Assembly (NCBI RefSeq): GCF_029760955.1
Contig: NZ_CP121682.1
Location: 4,278,001-4,342,000, forward strand
Direction: 5' to 3'
DNA from: Streptomyces cathayae
Lineage (GTDB): Bacteria > Actinomycetota > Actinomycetes > Streptomycetales > Streptomycetaceae
DNA: 64,000 nucleotides
Part shown: in pieces, positions 4,715 through 44,075 of the stretch
How positions within the stretch are numbered: position 1 is the first letter of the stretch
Layout of the letters: each line of letters opens with the position of its first letter
Program-made: the position numbers and the translations under genes
The notes under the pieces: generated by a model
Told to the model about the DNA's origin: nothing
Database searches by the model: none
Seen by the model: the letters and a program-made list of their open reading frames with translations, nothing else

Positions 4715-5026
4715 GCTCGTTCCTCCTCGTGCCGGGCACCTCGCCCGGCCCCACCGATGCTGTGCCCTCCCCCAAGGTGAAGGTCAACCAAGGCTGCTCG
4801 CGCCGCCCTCGGCGGCGTTCCGTGAGGGCGGGACCCTGTCACATTCGCGCTACGGCAGCGTCACCGAACGGTGCGGGGTTTCCGGGAAGTGGGAGCCCCG
4901 GTACGAGAGATCGCCCGCTTGTGCCCCGATAAGCCCCTTGTCCTGAAAGGTTCGAGCGGCCGTGCGTCTCGGCGCCGCCCGGATTCGCCCCCGGGGTGTG
5001 TCGGTGGCGACGCTTACGCTCGTTTT
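4715..5026. other. Divergent intergenic region
   Basis: This 312-base stretch separates the MerR-PP2C gene (leftward) from the lipoprotein gene (rightward). It must hold both promoters. No convincing ORF, MerR-type long-spacer palindrome or other clear motif was seen by eye. Confidence 0.5.
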
Positions 5027-5740
5027 ATGCGATACCCCAAGATTCTGATCGGCCTGGCCGCGGCCGGCCTGCTCGCCGCGGGCTGCGGCTCGGACGGCGA
5101 CTCCTCCGGCGCCGGCGACCGCCCCGCCGACGCCGGCGACCGTCCCGCCGGTTCGGGCGATGGCCGGAAGGCGCTGCCGGTCGCCGTCGACGGTCCGCAG
5201 GAGGACGTGGTCGACAGCAGCGGCGACGCCAAGCTCAAGGTCACCCCGGCTCCCGAGAACGGCGCGCCCTTCACCCAGAAGGTGGAGCACAAGCTGCGCG
5301 AGACCGTCCTCCGCGGCGTCATGGTGCCGGGCGAGACCAGCGCCGAGTGTGCCGACGGCGTGACCCAGAAGGCCGGCGCGGTCAGCCAGTGTGTCGTGAC
5401 GTACGAGGGGGCCGAGATCCCCTACGAGGTCAAGATCAGCGACAAGTACACCGAAGGCAGCATGTTCACCTTCTACGACACCACGCCCAAGAAGGGCCTG
5501 CTGGTGGCGAAGTCGGTCTACAACACGCTGCACGAGAGGTACAGCGCCGAAGCCGGGTACACGGGCAGCAGCAAGCTCGCCTGCGAGGAGATTCCCGTCG
5601 CCAAGACGGTCGACCTGAACTCCGACACCGGTTACACGTGCCAGTACTGGACCGAGACCGCCAACGACGGCGAGGGCGGCTACACGACCCTGCGGGTCAT
5701 GATGGGCGTCCGGGGCCCCGGCTTCGAACAGGCCGGGTGA
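5027..5740 (+). CDS. Secreted lipoprotein, DUF4333-like
   Basis: A 237-residue protein with a lipoprotein signal peptide: a basic start (MRYPK), a hydrophobic core and the lipobox LLAAGC with the lipidated Cys at residue 20. An Asp/Gly/Ala-rich linker runs to about residue 50. The mature part has Cys pairs around ECADGV...KAGAVSQCVVTYEG, which resembles DUF4333 domains (Cys, then about 14 residues, then Cys before a beta-strand), plus two later Cys residues. The start was taken at the ATG at 5027 because the signal peptide begins there although the frame is open to 4871. It should sit on the outer face of the cell membrane. No enzyme motif is visible. The next gene, convergent, is also a lipoprotein. 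Confidence 0.75.
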   Translation: MRYPKILIGLAAAGLLAAGCGSDGDSSGAGDRPADAGDRPAGSGDGRKALPVAVDGPQEDVVDSSGDAKLKVTPAPENGAPFTQKVEHKLRETVLRGVMVPGETSAECADGVTQKAGAVSQCVVTYEGAEIPYEVKISDKYTEGSMFTFYDTTPKKGLLVAKSVYNTLHERYSAEAGYTGSSKLACEEIPVAKTVDLNSDTGYTCQYWTETANDGEGGYTTLRVMMGVRGPGFEQAG

Positions 5741-31151: not shown

Positions 31152-31360
31152 AAGCCCCTGCTCCGGCGGGAGAACCGTCGGTAGGGGGCTTATGCGTGCG
31201 GGCTTACTTCTTCTTTCCCTGGGTCTTGCCGGGGATCTTGGCGACCTTCGTTTTCGCTGCTCAGGGGCGGTGGGCTCGTACGCCTGGTGGTCGTCGTCGG
31301 TCGTCATCGGTCACTGCCGAGCGGCCTCGGACGGCCCGGAGACGGACGGCCCAGTCGTGG
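31152..31360 (-). repeat. gpmA-end/att-like copy A
   Basis: Reading leftward: an attachment-like flank, the core TTACTTCTTCTTTCCCTGG at 31204-31222 (the same 19 bases as the end of gpmA at 43164, one mismatch), then the terminator stem AAGCCCCT...AGGGGGCTT at 31152-31191. To the right it shares about 150 bases at roughly nine in ten positions with copy C at 35496-35645. The flank ends in a TCGGACGGCCCGGAGACGG motif. Interpreted as a left-hand attachment site left by site-specific integration at the 3' end of gpmA. Confidence 0.75.
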
Positions 31361-31375
31361 ATCACATGAACGGCT

Positions 31376-31861
31376 TCAGCCGACGGACGTAGCCCGCCAC
31401 TGCGCGGTGATGCACCCCTCTTCCATGTCCCACCATTCCTTGGCCACGCCATGGTTGAGCAGCCTCCGCACCTTGGAGAGATCGGCGGTGGGCGGGACGT
31501 CCAGGGCGACCATGCGGAACCGTTCTGTGCCCTTGCCGCAGACTCCGAGTTCGTGAAACGCGTTGATCACGCTCTGCCGTGCAGCTCCAGAGCCGCCGTC
31601 GCGGAACACGATGAGGCGGATGGTGCAGTTCTCGGAACGACGAACTACCTCCCCCGCCCATCGCACGCCTTCGTCATCGGGCTCGGTGGCCACGACGTCT
31701 CCGCAGGCGATGCCTCGGACGAACCAGGGGATGTTGTCGAGCCGTGCGGTGCCATCGCCTTGGTCGACCGCCCACAGGCTCTCCACCGATGCCGGGGGCC
31801 AGTCATCTTCGATCTCAAGCCGGAAGTGCACCTTCACGTACGGGCCCTCGGGGTTCGTCAT
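31376..31861 (-). CDS. DUF4265 protein
   Basis: A 161-residue soluble protein. PYVKVHFRLEIEDDWPPASV, ESLWAVDQGDGTARLDNIPW and VRGIACGDVV give the DUF4265 pattern (a KV-x-F-x-L start, then SLWA and the D-N-I/P-F/W core). The remainder SENCTIRLIVFRD...INAFHELG, MVALDVPPTADLSKVRRLLN is consistent. Members are common in actinomycete accessory DNA; some serve as immunity-like partners, but the role here is unknown. It is the first gene inside the island, next to att-like copy A, and reads toward it. ATG at 31861 is the family start. Confidence 0.83.
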   Translation of the reverse strand: MTNPEGPYVKVHFRLEIEDDWPPASVESLWAVDQGDGTARLDNIPWFVRGIACGDVVATEPDDEGVRWAGEVVRRSENCTIRLIVFRDGGSGAARQSVINAFHELGVCGKGTERFRMVALDVPPTADLSKVRRLLNHGVAKEWWDMEEGCITAQWRATSVG

Positions 31862-32628
31862 GGTGCCCAGGATGCAGAACCCTGACGCGCCGGCCGCAGA
31901 TGGGTGACCGATGACGTCCGCTCAGGGCTGGACAGGGATTGGTCCTTGCCCCAGCCGACGACAGTCAGCCACGAGGGCGAGGAGGCCGACCGATCCCGCG
32001 TGCGTATGCCTCGCTGCGCCCCCACCGGCCTCCGCCACGCTGCCGGTGCCGTCGACCGGAGCAAGCCACGACGGTCGCCCCGCAACGACGATGCCTGAGC
32101 CATCAGCTTGGGAAGCGGGGAGCATCTGCGGCGGCCTCAGGGCCTGAGCTGGGTAAACGACCGGGACACCGTTCAGCCGGGCCTGGTTGCTTTGACCATG
32201 GTTCCCCGCTGTTCCCCGCTCGATCTGGTGCGCTTGTGGTGCGTGTGGACGCCACTGCTGAGTCAGCCCGCGTCGTTGGGTCAGTCAGCCCGATGTCGGT
32301 GGCCTCCGGTCGAGGAGCAGGTGGAAGGTGTATCCCTCGTCGCAGAACACCACGTCAAGGTTCGACTCCCGGCTGAACGGCCGTGAACGGGGCTGACCGA
32401 GACGGAAAGCGAGACGGGCGCGGCGGTCGTTGTCGGTACAGCCTCGTACTGGGCCGTACTCGGCTGTTCGGCCGACGAAGCGAGATGCCGTGCCGGGCGT
32501 CGCGAGCGTCGAAGGCCTTCGACCTGTGACCATGGAGCGTTCATTAAAAGTGATCGACGAGGAGCTCCAGGGCGCGGGGGTCGATATGGCGCCGCGTGGG
32601 GTGCTCGTGGAAACGTGCTGTAGGTGAT
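31862..32628. other. Gene-poor stretch inside the island
   Basis: About 770 bases. A leftward frame at 32285-32440 reads RPFSRESNLDVVFCDEGYTF then HLLLDRRPPTSG, which looks like the end of a real protein but has no credible beginning; it may be a decayed gene. The rest (31904-32280) has only weak shadow frames. It also contains the promoter region of the DUF4239 gene. Confidence 0.45.
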
Positions 32629-33429
32629 GTGGTGGACTGGTTGACCTCGCTGCCGGCGGTGGTGCTGGTTGTGGGCGGGCTCTTACTTGCCTTACTGGTC
32701 GCGGCCGTGGCGCGGATCGGCGTCCGGGCGCTCGTACCGGTCGAGGAACAGGACCGGGTGCCGCAGATCGCCACGCCCCTGATGCCGACACTCGGCGCCG
32801 CCTTCGCGATCTTCGCGGCCCTCTCACTGGCCAGCGAGGCCGGCTACCTGCGCGCAGCGGAGGGACTGGTGAGCGACGAGGCGGCCGCGGCCTCCCGCCT
32901 GGCATGGGCGGCGACAAGTCCGCGAGTCCAGTCGGAGCCGATCCACGCGGCGCTGCTGGACTACCTGCGGACCACGCGTGTCAGGGAGTGGAAGAGTCCG
33001 ACAGCGGCGTCCGGTGACGACCCGCCCACCGCTCGCGCGATCGCACAGCTGGAGCGGAGCGTGCGCACCGAGGCGGCCCGACCCGAGGTGGGAAGCACGA
33101 CGGGCACGGAGCTGGTGGTTTCCCTGGACGATGTCACCAATAGTCGTCGTGCCCGCATCGCGGCCGCCTCACGCGAGGTTCCCACGCTCTACGTCGTCAC
33201 GCTTGCGGTCAGCGGGCTGGCCTTGATCGTGAACTCCGGCGCACTGGTCTTCCGCAGCAGCCTGCGAACGTCACTGCTCGTCGTGGGTGTGGCGAGTGTG
33301 GTCGGGCTGAGCCTGGCGTTGCTCTTCGCACTCAGCGTGCCCTGGAGTGGACCGTTGATCGTCAGTGGGCATCCACTCGACGCCGTCATCGGGGACCTGA
33401 AGTCCGGCTTCTTCCACCGCGGGCCTTAG
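32629..33429 (+). CDS. DUF4239-type membrane protein with two TTA codons
   Basis: A 266-residue protein with four hydrophobic segments in the DUF4239/bestrophin-like layout: one near residues 8-27 (AVVLVVGGLLLALLVAAVAR), one near 50-68 (LMPTLGAAFAIFAALSLASE), then a long soluble helical domain (residues 80-180), and two close to the end (LYVVTLAVSGLALIVNSGAL and TSLLVVGVASVVGLSLALLF). The first helix uses TTA for leucine twice (32683 and 32692), rare codons read only by the bldA tRNA, so expression may be limited to late growth. GTG at 32629 or 32632 could start it. It ends just before att-like copy B. Confidence 0.78.
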   Translation: MVDWLTSLPAVVLVVGGLLLALLVAAVARIGVRALVPVEEQDRVPQIATPLMPTLGAAFAIFAALSLASEAGYLRAAEGLVSDEAAAASRLAWAATSPRVQSEPIHAALLDYLRTTRVREWKSPTAASGDDPPTARAIAQLERSVRTEAARPEVGSTTGTELVVSLDDVTNSRRARIAAASREVPTLYVVTLAVSGLALIVNSGALVFRSSLRTSLLVVGVASVVGLSLALLFALSVPWSGPLIVSGHPLDAVIGDLKSGFFHRGP

Positions 33430-33455: not shown

Positions 33456-33655
33456 AAGCCCCCTGCCTACGGAAAACCCGCAGGCAGGGGTTCGATCAAT
33501 ACTGCTTACTTCTTCTTGCCCTGGGTCTGGCGGGCCCGTTTCTCGCCCCTGGTCAGAAAGCCGCATACCTCGCTTGACCTGCCGTCGGGCGGTCGTTGTC
33601 GGTCGTCGTTGGTTCTCTTCGGAGGGCCCGGAGAGGGCCCGGCTCAAGCCGCCAA
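33456..33655 (-). repeat. gpmA-end/att-like copy B
   Basis: Core TTACTTCTTCTTGCCCTGG at 33506-33524, identical to the end of gpmA, followed leftward by the terminator stem CCCCTGCCT...AGGCAGGGG at 33461-33490. The right-hand flank (GGTCGTTGTCGGTCGTCGTT, GGGCCCGGAGAGGGCCCGG) is related to but more diverged from copies A and C. It marks the junction between two island segments. Confidence 0.75.
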
Positions 33656-35411: not shown

Positions 35412-35645
35412 ACGGCCCAGAGACGGCCCCAGGACAGCAGCGATAAGCCCCCTACTCGCGAAGAAGTCGCAGGTAGGGGGCTCAAAGAGTTCGGGCTACT
35501 TCTTCTTGCCCTGGGTCTTGCCGGGGATCTTGGTGACCTGCGTTTTCCCTGCTCAGGGGTAGTGGACTCGTACGCCTGGTGGTCGTCGTTGGTCGTCATT
35601 GGCCACCGCTGAGCGGCTTCGGACGGCCCAGAGACGGCCCGGGGG
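35412..35645 (-). repeat. gpmA-end/att-like copy C
   Basis: Core CTACTTCTTCTTGCCCTGG at 35496-35514 (one mismatch to gpmA), with terminator stem AAGCCCCCTAC...GTAGGGGGCT at 35445-35482. Both flanks carry the motif GACGGCCCAGAGACGGCCC: left at 35411-35430 and right at about 35624-35642, as expected for a junction shared by two elements. The right flank is about 90 per cent alike copy A's by eye. Confidence 0.75.
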
Positions 35646-36672: not shown

Positions 36673-37737
36673 TCAAGCGCTCTGTGTGAGTGGTTTCGGT
36701 GTGTGGTGGGGACGGGTGAGGTGCTGGTAGACCTCGCGGGCGATGAAGCGTTTGAGGCAGCGGAGGATGTCCTTCTTGGACATGCCTTCGGCGGTGCGGC
36801 GGGCGACGTAGTTCCGGGTCCGCTGGTCGTAGCGCATGCGGACCAGCGCGATCATGTGGAGTGCGTGGTTGGCCCGGCGGTCGCCGCCGCGGTTGAGGCG
36901 GTGCCGGTTGGTGCGGCCCGAGCTGGCCTGGACGGGGGCTGCCGCGCACAGGTGCGCGAACGATGCTTCCGAGGTGAGCCGCTCGGGGTTGTCGCCGGCG
37001 GTGATCAGGAGCTGGGCGGCGGTCTCGGTGCCTACTCCGGACAGCGCGACCAGCGAGGGTGCTGCTTCGGCCACCAGCGACTTCAGTTCGGCATCGGCGT
37101 CGGCGATCTCCTCGGTGAGGTACTGGTGGCGGCGGGCCAGACGCCGCAGGGCGATCCTGACCGCGCAGGCCGGGTCGCGGGTGTCCGCGCCGGGCCGGGA
37201 CCGTGACAGCTGCTTGATCAGCTCGGCGGGGGCCAGTGTGCGCAGCCGCTCACGGACTTCGCCCGGCGCGGTGATGATGAGGGTGCGGATCTGGTTGATG
37301 ATCTGTGTGCGGGCCTTGACGGCCGAGCGGCGGACCACTCGCAACGCGCGGATGGCCTCCACGATGCCATCGCGGGTCTTGGGGGTCCCGCCAGCCCGGC
37401 CGGAGAGTACTGCTGTCGCCGCGGCGAAGGCGTCTACGGGATCGGACTTGCCATTGGCCCTGCGGGCTCGTCGGTCGGGGCGGTCCACCTCGATCACGGT
37501 GACCTGGTTCGCCCGCAGCACCCGGGCAAGTTCGGAGCCGTAGGCGCCGGTGCCCTCGACACCGACGGCCATGACCTCGCCGTGCGAGCGAAGCCACTGC
37601 AGTAGCCGACGGTAGCCGTCGTGAGTGGTGGGAAATGTCTCGGTGGCCAGGTGCCGGCCGATGGAGTCGATCACTGCGGCCTGGTGGAAGTCGGTGTGGG
37701 TGTCGACGCCGCCGATCACCGTTGTCTCTTCTGCCAT
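36673..37737 (-). CDS. IS110-family transposase (DEDD)
   Basis: A 354-residue IS110 recombinase. The RuvC-like catalytic residues are seen in GGVDTHTDFHQAA (D), GVEGTGAYG (E) and ANGKSDPVDAFAAATA (D, D). The C-terminal Transposase_20 domain follows with LSGVGTETAAQLL and FAHLCAAAPVQASSGRTNRH (catalytic Ser in ASSG), RGGDRRANHALHMI. Enzymes of this family insert through a bridge RNA made from their own non-coding end. The protein is intact, so the element may be active. It has no clear terminal inverted repeats, as usual. The bridging RNA would lie upstream, at 37738-37990. Confidence 0.92.
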   Translation of the reverse strand: MAEETTVIGGVDTHTDFHQAAVIDSIGRHLATETFPTTHDGYRRLLQWLRSHGEVMAVGVEGTGAYGSELARVLRANQVTVIEVDRPDRRARRANGKSDPVDAFAAATAVLSGRAGGTPKTRDGIVEAIRALRVVRRSAVKARTQIINQIRTLIITAPGEVRERLRTLAPAELIKQLSRSRPGADTRDPACAVRIALRRLARRHQYLTEEIADADAELKSLVAEAAPSLVALSGVGTETAAQLLITAGDNPERLTSEASFAHLCAAAPVQASSGRTNRHRLNRGGDRRANHALHMIALVRMRYDQRTRNYVARRTAEGMSKKDILRCLKRFIAREVYQHLTRPHHTPKPLTQSA

Positions 37738-37999: not shown

Positions 38000-38326
38000 C
38001 TATGCCCTGATGGGCAACGCTCGTGCCTGCTGGCGGGCTTGGGCCCTCAGCTTCTTGAGGCGGTCATGGAACGCGTTGTGGCAGTTCTGGTCGAGGTTCA
38101 GCGGCAGGTCGAGTTGAGATATGAGCTCCGACTCCAGGGCCCACGGCTCGGCATGCTCGATCCAGCACACTCGGGCGTTCTCGGCCATCCAGCGGCTGAG
38201 GGTGGCTTCCCCTGCCTTGCCAAAGGTCAGGCGCTTGCCGCTGCCTACACGGCGCAGGCGCAGCGCCGAGCCGCACCTGCGGACCACGGCTTTGAGGTGG
38301 CATGAGAGGCCCAGCGACAAGCGCAA
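38000..38326 (-). pseudogene. GIY-YIG nuclease-family remnant
   Basis: The 108 residues LRRVGSGKRLTFGKAGEATL, SRWMAENARVCWIEHAEPWA, LESELISQLDLPLNLDQNCH, NAFHDRLKKLRAQARQQA are the C-terminal part of a GIY-YIG family protein common in streptomycetes. The N-terminal nuclease core (GIY...YIG, Arg, Glu) is missing; the sequence upstream changes to the end of the methylase gene without it. The fragment lies between the IS110 element and the methylase, and was probably cut during an insertion or deletion. Confidence 0.7.
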
Positions 38327-38350: not shown

Positions 38351-39268
38351 CTACGCCTTGCCCAGTTCTAGTTGCTCGACTAGGCGCTTGCGTTTAGAGG
38401 TCATCCAGCGGTAGTTGCCCTCACCGATTATTCCGGTTACTTCAGGGAGGATGAGCCGGTGTCCAAAAATGGCATATTCGACACCAGTGCGCTGTATCTG
38501 AGCCGTGTGTAGAATATTAAATTCGACACAACGAAAGCCCTTGTATAGCTTTTCTGTGATCCGCTTGTCCGCGTCGTAAGTAAGTAGCCATCGGAGTGGC
38601 GTCTGACGCAGCAGGGTGGCCAATTCCTGATGGTCGGCGTCTGCAAGGGAGTCCATGTAAAGTCGATCCCCTTGTACCAGATAAGGAGGGTCGACGTATA
38701 GAAGGACGTCGTCACTCTGAGGTTCTAGTGAGCTAATGAAATGACGGGCGTCCATCTCGGACAAAGTGACGCGGGATGAGTAGGTGCCGAGGTGGCGGAT
38801 CCTGCCAATCAAGTTCTCTCGATTAAATCGGGCGTCAATCTTCCATTTGCCTGTTTGATCGAGTCCTCCGATGGGGCGAGCCCGCAGGATCCCAGACCGA
38901 TTGCATCGGTTCAAAAAGAAGGTGGAAAAGCCCAGCTCGATATCGCTTTTCCCGGCCGGATTTCGATAGATTTCCGAGTGGTGGTGCCAGGCGTCAATGC
39001 TTACTTCTTCAGTTTCAATGACTGAAGCAAATTGTTCCGTATGCTCAAAAATGCATCGCCATAGGGCGGAGATGCCAGGGTCGAGGTCGTTGATGTAAAT
39101 GTGGTCGACCTTGTTGTCGACGAGGAGACGCAGAGCTGCGCCCGCGCCCCCTGCGAATGCTTCTGCATAAGCTTTGGGACGCGGGCGTTGTCGCGCAATC
39201 AGCTGTGCGATATAGGGGGCCAGCCTTGCTTTTCCTCCTGGGTATCGGAGGGGGCTGATGTACCTCAT
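38351..39268 (-). CDS. DNA adenine methylase (Dam/D12 class)
   Basis: A 305-residue N6-adenine methyltransferase of the D12 (alpha) class. It begins with the SAM-binding loop SPLRYPGGKARLAPYIAQLI, has YAEAFAGGAGAALRLL (motif I-like), then FFLNRCNRSGILRARPIGG, and the catalytic motif LLYVDPPYLVQGDRLY (DPPY). It methylates adenine in a short target, perhaps for protection or signalling. The stop lies well short of the GIY-YIG remnant; the start overlaps the stop of the ParB-like gene by four bases (ATGA). Codon use is AT-richer than surroundings (CTA, AAA, ATA frequent), a sign of transfer. Confidence 0.9.
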   Translation of the reverse strand: MRYISPLRYPGGKARLAPYIAQLIARQRPRPKAYAEAFAGGAGAALRLLVDNKVDHIYINDLDPGISALWRCIFEHTEQFASVIETEEVSIDAWHHHSEIYRNPAGKSDIELGFSTFFLNRCNRSGILRARPIGGLDQTGKWKIDARFNRENLIGRIRHLGTYSSRVTLSEMDARHFISSLEPQSDDVLLYVDPPYLVQGDRLYMDSLADADHQELATLLRQTPLRWLLTYDADKRITEKLYKGFRCVEFNILHTAQIQRTGVEYAIFGHRLILPEVTGIIGEGNYRWMTSKRKRLVEQLELGKA

Positions 39269-40626
39269 CGCTTCTTCTTTTCAAGCAATTCGTCAGCCTT
39301 GTTCAAGAGGGGGCCGTATGCCAGGCTCAATTTCCGCACCTCGGAAGTAAGTGGGTTGCTCTGCCAGGAGTGAATGAAGGCGTGGAGGGTCTTCAGTACC
39401 AAGGCTCCGTCTTCCTCCTGCGAGAGTCTCCATGCGTTCGCGAGGAGAGGTTCGTTCTTTTCTGGGTCTACCTGATGAAGGACAGCGCCGATTCTACCCT
39501 TGAGCGAGTCCTTGTTCCGCCGCCATCCCAGCTGCTCGTAGACCTCGGTGACCACGATGTCCACCACGGCCCTGACCATAATAGACGCCACGTTGGGCAT
39601 CTCGTCGATCTTGATCTGCTGGGCCTCCTCCAACACCTCAGAGCTCCGCAGGCTCACATGCCGAAGCTTCACACCTTGGAAGAGTCTTTTTTCGAAGTCG
39701 GCCCGCTTCCTTCGGGTCGGCTTCTTATCTTCGGTGGTGTCATTATCGGCAACACTGACCTTAGAGTTGCCTTCAGTGGTGTTGGTGGACTTGGAGTACT
39801 TCTCCGGTTCCTCAAGCCGATCGGCCAGCTTCGGCAGGTAATCCTCAACGCCCTGCAGGTAGTCTTCCCTCTGCCTCTTGGAGTAGATCTGGTCCACAGA
39901 CACAGGACCCGCTAGGTCGCTGAAGAGCCGGCTAAGGATGGGGTGAAGCCGCGCTGACGGAAAACTGCTCAGCACGACATCTCCCTCGACGGAGATGCCG
40001 AGTCGATTCCGGACGGTGGGGTCGGCGATCATTCTGCCGAGATTCGTGATCCGCTTTTCACGCACGATCCGTGCGTTGGCGAGCAACTCGAGATCGTCGG
40101 GAAACCATGCGTGCACAGCTTCGATAAACAGCCGTGCCTTCTCTGTCGGGGTAGCCCGACCCTTGAACCGGCTGGCCTCGCCGGGGTTCCACGGGACTGT
40201 CCCTACACCATTGTTCTCGCCGGTGTGCTTGAGCTTGATCCAATGCTCCGCCTGCATCCGGCTCTCTGCGATGACGCACGCGAGTCGACGTGGCACCTCT
40301 CCATTCCTTGCAATGGCGGCGAACTGCTTCCGCAGTTTTTCTGTAGGAGCCAGCGCAGGGTTGTGGAGGAGCATGAGGGCTGCCACTCTCCTGTTGCCTT
40401 CGAGCACCACGTTCCGGTCTCCGTCGACGAGAACGATGGTCAGGTCCGTGGGGTTAACCCCATGCTGCGAGATGTCCCGTGCCAGCCGCACAAGCTTCTC
40501 TGGATGGTTCTCAAGTAGAGCGGCAATGGACTGCTCAAGGCTGGAGGTCGGATGTGTGTGCCGCGGGTTTGTCTCATCGAGCGCCAAAGACGCCACATGC
40601 ATGCTTGCTTGCCTCATGCCACTCAT
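39265..40626 (-). CDS. ParB/Srx-fold protein, methylase partner
   Basis: A 453-residue protein with a ParB N-terminal fold: VASLALDETNPRHTHPTSSL, then LTIVLVDGDRNVVLEGNRRV (the EGNRR motif that stands for the ParB GERR/DGQQR loop) and AALMLLHNPALAP. Residues 130-260 include an H-rich stretch and helices (LELLANARIVREKRITNLGR). The C-terminal 200 residues are helical with a charged linker (TTEGNSKVSVADNDTTEDKK) and are not recognised. ParB/Srx folds occur in nucleases (DUF262 of GmrSD) and CTPases. It precedes the methylase with a four-base overlap, so the two form one unit. Which activity it has is not known. Confidence 0.75.
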   Translation of the reverse strand: MSGMRQASMHVASLALDETNPRHTHPTSSLEQSIAALLENHPEKLVRLARDISQHGVNPTDLTIVLVDGDRNVVLEGNRRVAALMLLHNPALAPTEKLRKQFAAIARNGEVPRRLACVIAESRMQAEHWIKLKHTGENNGVGTVPWNPGEASRFKGRATPTEKARLFIEAVHAWFPDDLELLANARIVREKRITNLGRMIADPTVRNRLGISVEGDVVLSSFPSARLHPILSRLFSDLAGPVSVDQIYSKRQREDYLQGVEDYLPKLADRLEEPEKYSKSTNTTEGNSKVSVADNDTTEDKKPTRRKRADFEKRLFQGVKLRHVSLRSSEVLEEAQQIKIDEMPNVASIMVRAVVDIVVTEVYEQLGWRRNKDSLKGRIGAVLHQVDPEKNEPLLANAWRLSQEEDGALVLKTLHAFIHSWQSNPLTSEVRKLSLAYGPLLNKADELLEKKKR

Positions 40627-40673
40627 AGTCCTAGCCCGCCCCCCGGCAGTGCATCACATTTATGAAATCTGGA

Positions 40674-40771
40674 TCATACCCTCCTGTGTTCTCTGGCAGC
40701 TAGACCGATGATTTCCAGCCAATGGCTGAAATTCATGTCATCTGGGTCGTCGGAGCTGAAGGGGGGCGGGG
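40674..40771 (-). pseudogene. 3' stub of a gene cut by the ISAs1-type element
   Basis: On the minus strand, directly upstream of the ParB-like gene, a frame ends with PPPFSSDDPDDMNFSHWLEI then IGLAAREHRRV and a stop at 40674. The protein-like pattern begins exactly at the end of the IS terminal repeat (40772). The IS thus seems to have removed the 5' part of a gene that lay 47 bases upstream of the ParB-like gene and could have belonged to the same operon. Its identity is unknown. The reading rests on only about 30 codons. Confidence 0.35.
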
Positions 40772-42210
40772 CAAGGCCCCGGGGAGAGTCGCGTTCGCCC
40801 GATTTGATCATGTGGCGGGCTCCGGACGCAGAGCGGGCACGGCGCTTGTAGATCATGGAGTTCTCTACGCTTCACGATCTGCAAGGTTGCCGTGCCCGCT
40901 GCCTCATCTTCTCTCACCGCTGCTGCGCCCGTCACGACGCCCCCGCCCGTCGGCCCGGCGGCGGTCGTGCCGCCCGGACTCCTGGATGCCCTGGCCCGCG
41001 TGCCCGACCCACGCGACCGCCGGGGCGACGTTTCCAGCTGACCACCTTGCTCGCCGTCGGCGTCTGCGCGATGACCTGTGCCGGGCACAACTCCCTTGTC
41101 TCCATCGCGGAATGGGCACGGCGGTGTGAGCAGGAGGTTTTGGCCAGGCTCGGTTGCCCGTACGATCCCTTCGCCGGGCGCTACCGCGCTCCGGGTGAAC
41201 GCACCCTGCGTGACGCGTTTGCCAGGGTCGATCCCGCGGCGCTGACCGCGGCCGGCTTCGCCCACCTGACTGCTCTGGCCACCGCACCCCTTGCGCCGGT
41301 GAACCCGGACGGCACCCGCGAGCGTGAACAGCGCCGCGCCCACCGCACCGCCCGACGCGTCCGTCCAGGCCACCAGAGCATCCGCAGACGTGCGATCGCC
41401 GTCGACGGTAAATGCCTGCGCGGTGCGGTACGCGCCGACGGATCGAAGGTGTTCGTGCTCAGCGCGGTGCGCCACGACGACGCGCTGACCGCGGCCCTGC
41501 GTGAGATCGGCGCGAAAACCAACGAAATCCCCGAGTTCGCCCCGCTGCTGGACCAGATCGCCGATACCGACCTCACCGACACGGTCGTCACCGTCGATGC
41601 CCTGCACGCCCGGACTGCCCATGCCCGCTACCTCGTGGAGCAGCGCAAAGCGCACTACCTGCTGTCCGTGAAGCACAACCAGCCCACCCTCGCCCGCCAG
41701 CTGGCGAAGCTGCCCTGGCGTGAGATACCCGTCCAAGACCGTTCCCGCGACCGCGGTCATGGCCGTGAGGAAGTACGCGAGGTCAAGGTCGCCAGCGTGG
41801 ACAACCTGCTGTTCCCGCACGCCAAACAGGTCGTACGCATCCACCGCAAGCGTCGCCGACTCGGCACGAAGAAGTGGAGCACCGAGACCGTCTACGCGGT
41901 CACCGACCTCGCCGCCCACCAGGCCGGCGCCGCCGAGATCGCCGCCTGGGCCCGCGGGCACTGGATGATCGAATCCACCGTCCACTGGTCCAAAGACGTC
42001 GTCTTCGGCGAGGACCTGAGCCAGGTCCGCCGCCACCGCACCCCCGTCGTCGTGAGTGTCTTCCGCGACCTGGCCCGCGCCGCCCTCCACCGGGCCGGCT
42101 GGGCCAACATCGCCAGTGGCCGCCGCGCTCACACCCGCCCCGAAGCCATCCTCACCCTCCACGGCATCCCATGATCAAACCGGGCGAACGCGACTCTCCC
42201 CGGGGCCTTG
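40772..42210 (+). mobile_element. ISAs1-type insertion sequence
   Basis: A 1.44-kb element bounded by long inverted repeats of 41 bases: CAAGGCCCCGGGGAGAGTCG... at 40772-40812 and its reverse complement at 42170-42210, with one mismatch seen. It carries one transposase gene (with a frameshift, see next entry). No target-site duplication is evident at the junctions. To the right it abuts the stub of a tyrosine integrase. Confidence 0.85.
40892..42174 (+). pseudogene. ISAs1-family transposase with frameshift
   Basis: The first 49 codons from GTG at 40892 (VPAASSSLTAAAPVTTPPPV to LLDALARVPDPRDRRG) are the usual ISAs1 start but end at a stop at 41039. The frame then resumes in another phase with RRFQLTTLLAVGVCAMTCAG and runs to 42174. 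The break is at about 41020-41030 (CGGGGCGACG), consistent with loss of one base. The rest is well kept: RRAIAVDGKCLRGAVRADGS, VVTVDALHARTAHARYLVEQ, HYLLSVKHNQPTL, WSTETVYAVTDL, HWMIESTVHWSKDVVFGEDL (DDE residues present). An inactive copy, or a sequencing indel. Confidence 0.78.
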
Positions 42211-42371
42211 ACGCCTCGGTGCTCCTGGACGCGGGGGAGAACATCAAGGCTCTCGCCGAGTACCTGGGCCACTCGGACCCGGGCCTGACGCTCCGCGTGT
42301 ACGCGCACCTGATGCCTACCAGTAGCGAGCGGACCCGGAGAGCGGTCCACAAGATCTATGACAAGAGCTGA
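42211..42371 (+). pseudogene. C-terminal stub of a tyrosine integrase
   Basis: After the IS end the plus-strand frame reads DASVLLDAGENIKALAEYLG then HSDPGLTLRVYAHLMPTSSE, RTRRAVHKIYDKS and a stop at 42371. ALAEYLGHSDPGLTLRVYAHLM is the last conserved box of phage-type integrases, with the His of LGHSD and the nucleophile Tyr in VYAHLMP. The rest of the integrase has been replaced by the ISAs1-type element. Its position between the island and gpmA fits an integrase that used the 3' end of gpmA as its attachment site. Confidence 0.8.
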
Positions 42372-43084: not shown

Positions 43085-43182
43085 GGCCCAGCGACGGCCC
43101 AAGGGCAGCAACAAGCCCCCTCCTGGCGGAAGAACCGCAGGTAGGGGGCTTGTTCGTGGGCGCTTACTTCTTCTTGCCCTGG
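43085..43182 (-). repeat. gpmA-end copy D, original att site
   Basis: The end of gpmA itself: core TTACTTCTTCTTGCCCTGG at 43164-43182 (codons for the last residues QGKKK and stop), then the terminator stem, then the motif ACGGCCCAGCGACGGCCC at 43084-43101, like that flanking copy C. It is the reference copy to which A, B and C correspond. Confidence 0.8.
43110..43154 (-). terminator. Terminator of gpmA
   Basis: Perfect 12-base arms AACAAGCCCCCT / AGGGGGCTTGTT around a 21-base loop, 10 bases past the gpmA stop (reading leftward). The same position in copies A, B and C carries a related stem with a changed loop, so the terminator travels with each integration. Confidence 0.85.
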
Positions 43183-43925
43183 TTCTTGACCGCTTCGATG
43201 GCGGCCGCGGCGGCGTCCGGGTCGAGGTAGGTGCCGCCGGGGTTGACCGGCTTGAAGTCGGCGTCGAGCTCGTAGGAGAGGGGGATGCCCGTCGGGATGT
43301 TCAGGCCCGCGATGTCGGCGTCGGAGACGCCGTCGAGGTGCTTGACCAGGGCGCGCAGGCTGTTGCCGTGGGCGGCGACCAGGACCGTGCGGCCGGTCAG
43401 GAGGTCGGGGACGATCGAGTCGAACCAGTACGGGAGCATCCGGACGACGACGTCCTTCAGGCACTCCGTGCGCGGACGCAGCTCCGGCGGGAGGGTCGCG
43501 TAGCGCGGGTCGTCGAACTGGGAGTACTCGGCGTCGGTGTCCAGCGGGGGCGGCGGGGTGTCGTAGGAGCGGCGCCACAGCATGAACTGCTCCTCGCCGA
43601 ACTCCGCGAGGGTCTGCGCCTTGTCCTTGCCCTGGAGGGCGCCGTAGTGACGCTCGTTCAGGCGCCAGCTGCGGCTGACCGGGATCCAGAGGCGGTCGGC
43701 GGACTCCAGCGCCAGCTGCGCGGTGCGGATCGCGCGCTTCTGGAGGGACGTGTGGACCACGTCGGGCAGCAGGCCGGCGTCCTTGAGCAGCTCGCCGCCG
43801 CGTGTCGCCTCCTTCTCGCCCTTCGGAGTGAGGTTGACGTCCACCCAGCCGGTGAACAGGTTCTTCGCGTTCCAGTCGCTCTCGCCGTGGCGGAGGAGGA
43901 TCAGCTTGTACGGTGCGTCGGCCAT
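43164..43925 (-). CDS. gpmA: 2,3-bisphosphoglycerate-dependent phosphoglycerate mutase
   Basis: A 253-residue enzyme that interconverts 3- and 2-phosphoglycerate in glycolysis. The catalytic His is in [12 protein letters not shown] near residue 13, the substrate loops in [34 protein letters not shown] (phosphate loop) and the second His in [16 protein letters not shown]. The start at 43925 (MADAPYK) matches the family; the frame to 43949 adds 8 residues. Its last codons form the att core used by the island, and the reading frame is intact, so integration has left the enzyme whole. The gene diverges from the MFS transporter. Confidence 0.97.
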
Positions 43926-44075
43926 GGGTCCGAGCGTAATCGAAGCCATGAGCGGGCCGTGCCCCCCGCTCGACGGGCGGACCGTCGGTGGGAACCGTTA
44001 ATCGAGTGGTGGACTCCTCCGGTTCCTTTGTAAGGTGTGCTCGCCGTTTCAGGTGCTTACATCGGGGGTTGCGTG

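Follow-up and report, generated by a model that had tools for sequence, protein, structure and literature searches.

The Streptomyces cathayae stretch analysed here (64,000 nucleotides, hereafter the window) carries on its reverse strand two genes that share a four-base ATGA overlap (39265..39268, reverse strand), made up of the stop of the upstream gene and the start of the downstream one in the called open reading frames (ORFs). The upstream gene, PD-Lambda-5_A (A; 39265..40626, reverse strand), encodes a 453-residue protein (PADLOC match, AlphaFold model) with a ParB/sulfiredoxin (Srx)-fold N-terminus, a helical middle and a HEPN-like C-terminus, and the downstream gene, PD-Lambda-5_B (B; 38351..39268, reverse strand), encodes a D12-class adenine-N6 DNA methylase of 305 residues (PADLOC, PF02086). 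The match of B to PF02086 MethyltransfD12 lies well above the Pfam cut-off of 22 (E 1.8e-16, 61.1 bits), and DPPY as well as FAGGAGA are visible in its translation, so that both marks of a D12 adenine-N6 methylase, the profile match and DPPY, are present. NCBIfam gave Dam for B at 54.5 bits, under the cut-off of 114.85, and no useful match for A; the methylase is the sole member of the pair recognised by Pfam, and PHROGs assigned A to families without known function (best phrog_9592, E 7e-65). The ORFs and the PF02086 match agree with a preliminary description of this DNA, which had reported a D12 methylase with DPPY and a 453-residue ParB-fold protein overlapping by ATGA, and had called the pair AT-richer than the chromosome. 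The guanine-plus-cytosine fractions of the 1-kb segments over the pair bear this out (0.575, 0.564 and 0.617, compared with 0.65-0.76 in most remaining segments).

Compared with the PADLOC models, A matched PDLC04007 (PD-Lambda-5_A) almost from end to end (E 1.1e-193, 642.5 bits, profile positions 1-453 of 454, residues 4-452), and the best 25 of the 26 PADLOC families that it matched were all PD-Lambda-5_A. B matched PDLC04018 (PD-Lambda-5_B; E 1.1e-107, 357.7 bits, residues 2-278). The A-model match, the adjacent B-model match and carriage on a mobile element, which is typical of PD-Lambda-5 rather than strictly required, were all found, and the pair is almost certainly a copy of this system. 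The preliminary statement that no described system holds such a pair is therefore overturned by the PADLOC models and the literature. The window copy is real, looks intact, belongs to a catalogued defence system and sits in a decaying element. Very probably, the two genes form a predicted anti-phage system of the PD-Lambda-5 family, carried on an integrative element, now decayed, that lies at the 3' end of a neighbouring gene (43164-43949, reverse strand), which we take to be gpm.

PD-λ-5 was first found in an E. coli screen (Vassallo et al., 2022, PMC9519451), in which it emerged from a phage-defence selection, gave broad protection and was labelled restriction-modification plus abortive infection (RM+Abi) by its authors. 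The dual RM/Abi view was restated in PMC10799925, PMC11811056 counts PD-Lambda-5 with HEPN systems, a survey of Actinobacteria describes it as frequently prophage-encoded (PMC10482375), and it has been reported in islands and prophages (PMC12629846, PMC12824646). In the passages drawn on here the published mechanism goes no further than 'RM+Abi', and among the papers listed in a search of the literature from 2022 on (18 of 19) none contained both 'PD-lambda-5' and 'ParB'. Like the E. coli system, the present pair consists of adjacent, mobile-element-borne genes that both match near full length, a likeness measured against the PADLOC models and not the founding E. coli proteins. In contrast to the E. 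coli system, which came from a P2-like prophage (PMC10482375), it lies in a Streptomyces integrative element at the gpm site.

Domain architecture of protein A

The AlphaFold model of A (pLDDT 87.5, pTM 0.51) contains a ParB/Srx-fold domain at about residues 1-157 (40156..40626, reverse strand), and the top structural matches of residues 5-148 were partition ParB and Noc proteins. The EGNRR loop pointed out in the preliminary description lies at residues 76-80, and its GNRR part (residues 77-80; 40387..40398, reverse strand) is the same in all 57 aligned homologues; the N-terminus thus has both the fold and the G-x-R-R loop of the ParB/Srx superfamily. A link to DUF262/GmrS-type proteins, also raised earlier, returned as a weak signal, with GmrSD_N as the commonest Pfam match among the A homologues (5/57, best E 2.8e-4) and ParB_N in one of the 57. 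A structure search of viral proteins with A placed an uncharacterised Vibrio phage protein on top (E 4.7e-8), followed by proteins named after ParB and GmrSD, none of them better than E 7.6e-4, and a sequence search of solved structures gave nothing convincing, the ParB-like 6ryk appearing at E 0.57. The GmrSD/DUF262 type IV enzymes likewise have a ParB/Srx-like nucleoside triphosphate-binding domain of their own, with a D-G-Q-Q-R motif, but A ends in a HEPN-like domain and not in HNH, and it has a methylase partner.

The C-terminal part of A (residues 322-453; 39268..39663, reverse strand) probably adopts a HEPN fold. This domain had escaped the preliminary description, which was right in seeing a modification/defence cassette with a ParB/Srx-fold protein on a mobile element. 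Twelve residues of A are invariant across the 57 aligned homologues, including Arg352 (39571..39573, reverse strand), a candidate active-site residue, and His419 (39370..39372, reverse strand), a candidate catalytic histidine, and from their order in the sequence the two may belong to a HEPN active site. Fusions of HEPN with ParB (Saro_3948) and MAE_28990 HEPN operons with a ParB nuclease and a DNA methylase were tabulated by Anantharaman et al. (2013, PMC3710099), and A resembles them, by description, in its domain combination, which was therefore on record in 2013, though not under the name PD-Lambda-5. The 2013 table rates ParB fusions as mostly active (PMC3710099), whereas 55 of the 57 homologues here are without the HEPN motif R-x4-6-H.

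Distribution and pairing of A and B

At E 0.001, PDLC04007 matched 7 of 392 genomes of the genus and 7 of 396 of the phylum, the S. cathayae genome being counted in each. One genus match was divergent (G1052, E 6.3e-25) and another extended over 45 positions only (G899, E 1.2e-4), and three phylum matches (G470, G575, G657) covered the first half of the profile or less. With the A protein as query, 2/394 genomes of the taxonomic family matched, again including S. cathayae, which has a single copy of A. Matches were found in 6 of 50,697 phage records and 5 of 72,556 plasmid records, all at less than 60% identity, and a profile scan of viral contigs gave 123 relatives.

The preliminary description had named two observations that would speak against a defence pair, namely homologues of the two genes not occurring together and a grouping of the ParB-like protein with partition proteins beside parA; neither was borne out. 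Among the best 80 of the 123 viral relatives, which include near-identical loci (e.g., L034/L035, L040-L043, L104-L106), a B-type methylase was present in 72, on the same strand as A in 58 and on the opposite strand in 14 (examples are L037, L058, L101, L103 and L108). The estimated gap between the A stop and the B start in the 58 same-strand loci was -4 to 94 bases, with six loci at -4 and one at 468. Eight viral loci had no B; in five of these A reaches the contig end (L063, L064, L074, L107, L109), and the remaining three (L104-L106) are divergent proteins of about 365 residues. Among the 13 genome loci, B stood next to A in 10, lay 3.9 kb upstream in L020 and was not found in L027, with Vsr- and Dcm-like genes (by eye) in its neighbourhood, or in L029, where the best PADLOC match of A was the candidate PDC-M38A (223.7 bits) and an Mrr_cat protein stands alongside. 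A ParA-like ORF within 3 kb was found in 0/94 loci in a Walker-motif search, made without a profile, of ORFs longer than 150 residues, some loci being shortened by contig ends. Distances among A and B proteins correlated in 65 pairs (r 0.78; 0/1000 permutations as high), a set that excludes L020 and every locus lacking a usable B; this fits co-inheritance, coevolution and shared descent being inseparable in this measure.

The decaying element and the search for a third gene

The att-like repeats, two insertion sequences and integrase stub mentioned in the preliminary description could each be located. Upstream of A lies an insertion sequence, presumably of the ISAs1 type (40772..42210, forward strand), with DDE_Tnp_1_assoc and DDE_Tnp_1 at 40855-42174 and 41-nt inverted ends (40772-40812 and 42170-42210, 98%), and on the other side of the pair there is an IS110-type insertion sequence (36673-37737; PF01548/PF02371). 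A tyrosine integrase C-terminal stub of 53 residues (42210..42371, forward strand) matched PF00589 at profile positions 137-169 of 172 (E 0.0018, 18.5 bits), under the family cut-off of 27.1. Four 64-nt att-like repeats were found, at 31165-31228, 33467-33530, 35457-35520 and 43125-43188, the last overlapping the gpm 3' end (reverse strand); identity to the copy at 31165 is 63, 67 and 86% for the remaining three, and an exact 13-nt core of the 43125 repeat recurs at 33512 and 35502. These four copies suggest accretion of att-like ends as one element after another integrated at this site. Between the repeats lie genes for a DUF4265 protein (31376-31861, reverse strand) and a bestrophin-like protein (32596-33429, forward strand).

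In a related Streptomyces locus, L021, gpm and an att-like copy (near 5017-5230) enclose a segment of about 8 kb with genes for a GntR-UTRA regulator, B, A, a NUDIX protein and a 412-residue integrase. A and B are retained in the window at 73% DNA identity to L021, and past the insertion sequence follow the final 136 aligned bases of the integrase (42211-42346, 83% identical), so most of the integrase was apparently lost through the insertion together with a deletion. The preliminary description had suggested that an upstream third gene was cut by the insertion sequence and that the copy may be incomplete. The open frame of 31 residues that ends at 40674, before the insertion sequence, was not recognised and its DNA is single in the genome; the cut gene is best read as the integrase, and therefore the two-gene system is probably complete in the window. 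Between A and the insertion sequence, a block seemingly shared with L017 and L021 (40656..40678, reverse strand; by eye) is a possible promoter region; scanning the pair for sigma-70 promoters gave none.

The idea of a conserved third system gene was rejected, no candidate being kept across loci. A GIY-YIG_2 remnant (38000-38326, reverse strand; profile positions 78-152, with one stop inside if extended), absent from the preliminary description, is situated between the methylase and the IS110-type element; the genome has a second, longer match at C1:1966695-1967057. Inspection by eye of the first 70 residues of each called ORF, with no profile, showed nothing corresponding to the remnant downstream of B in L017 or L021. 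Just downstream of B in L018 (7619-8461, reverse strand) and L019 (7560-8402, reverse strand) there are closely similar genes for 280-residue proteins with an RNxxxH motif, HEPN-like by eye; that of L018 matched nothing in Pfam or PADLOC, and that of L019 gave DUF4145 at a non-significant E of 0.12.

Locus L020 (4212-10737; same genus, G1041) has an operon-like order of D12 methylase, HerA helicase (PF01935, E 6.3e-13), a 485-residue protein (NurA-like by eye, a guess) and an A protein 58% identical to that of the window, followed by a transposase-like ORF (by eye), with no B start seen past the A stop. HerA with a relative of the 485-residue protein was found without A in 5/5 further loci inspected (six genomes matched, G433 not included), four of them with a B-like methylase (L119, L120, L121, L123) and one without (L122). 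We rejected a HerA variant class; L020 may be a single hybrid or decayed copy, and HerA, the 485-residue relative and a B-like methylase without A may form a defence system of their own. Viral sequences scanned with the 485-residue protein gave no relative.

Discussion

We tentatively favour a mechanism in which methylation-gated sensing by the ParB/Srx domain is coupled to a HEPN-type suicide effector. B would methylate a specific adenine site throughout the host genome, and the ParB/Srx domain of A would bind nucleotide and DNA and monitor incoming DNA without the methyl mark, or a loss of B activity, possibly nicking DNA. Detection would release the HEPN-like domain to cleave host or phage RNA, which would halt infection with loss of the cell, so that restriction-like sensing and abortive infection would be combined in two proteins. 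The proposed logic is that of PrrC with the PrrI restriction-modification system, a HEPN ribonuclease restrained by a modification system (PMC3710099), but the sensor here would be a ParB/Srx domain instead of an ABC ATPase, and there are no hsdMSR genes. An unlikely but more explicit version casts A as a nucleotide-switched methylation sensor whose ParB/Srx domain would load onto DNA like a ParB clamp only where the B mark is absent, the clamp state then switching on a HEPN-type ribonuclease with a rearranged site, Arg352 and acidic residue 356 on one helix and His419 on another replacing R-x4-6-H.

Several observations count against a HEPN-armed defence system in the window. R-x4-6-H occurs in 2/57 A homologues and is missing from the A of the window, so the domain might lack activity or might employ Arg352, the acidic residue 356 and His419 instead. 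There are HEPN families, c2405 among them, that retain the histidine without the arginine (PMC3710099). The structural Z-values for HEPN lie near 8, which is possible between unrelated helical bundles, Foldseek with the isolated domain gave no match at E <= 0.001, a profile search of solved-structure sequences with the C-terminal part gave no HEPN chain, no Pfam family matched the A of the window at E 1, and the Pfam HEPN matches of homologues (DUF4145 in 3/57, Csm6 HEPN in 1/57) were no better than those of unrelated families. The ratios of non-synonymous to synonymous divergence (dN/dS) against L017 and L021, 0.138/1.37 and 0.171/1.91 for A and 0.102/1.47 and 0.120/2.74 for B, are rough, since dS is near saturation, and say nothing on present use of the window copy. 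Finally, the insertion sequence lies 145 bp upstream of A. Together with the integrase stub, the two insertion sequences and the GIY-YIG remnant, this position might mark the pair as an inert remnant in a decaying island, which we consider improbable: A and B have unbroken frames that run almost the full length of the models, dN/dS is low, and the block seemingly shared with L017 and L021 falls within the 145 bp still left.

Instead of a suicide system, the pair may be a compact restriction-modification unit in which the ParB/Srx domain cuts DNA and the HEPN-like domain is a mere dimerisation or docking module. ParB-fold nucleases have been reported in restriction-modification-linked and conflict proteins, type II methylases are among the models that match B (PDLC03358, 248.7 bits), and R-x4-6-H is lacking in 55/57 homologues; the invariance of Arg352 and His419 goes beyond what docking needs, however, and the original label was RM+Abi (PMC9519451), so that we rate this possibility as fairly low. 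Carriage by phage records, plasmids, viral contigs and an integrative element, and the frequency of HEPN domains as toxin-antitoxin toxins (PMC3710099), would suit a methylation-dependent addiction module that stabilises mobile elements, with phage defence as a by-product. The recovery of the E. coli member in a defence selection, with broad protection (PMC9519451), makes this doubtful, although the addiction and defence readings are compatible with each other. A partition or regulatory protein with no tie to defence, as the matches of residues 5-148 to ParB and Noc structures might imply, is largely refuted and highly improbable, given the HEPN-like C-terminus, a methylase instead of ParA as partner and the 0/94 loci with a ParA-like ORF.

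The novelty once claimed for the pair is thus corrected, as it is already in defence catalogues, and a domain detail is added to PD-Lambda-5, the fusion of a ParB/Srx with a HEPN-like domain. The 12 residues invariant over 57 diverse A homologues are direct targets for mutation. If the clamp version of the mechanism is true, a ParB-type clamp, and not an ABC or AAA ATPase, would couple the detection of unmarked DNA to suicide.
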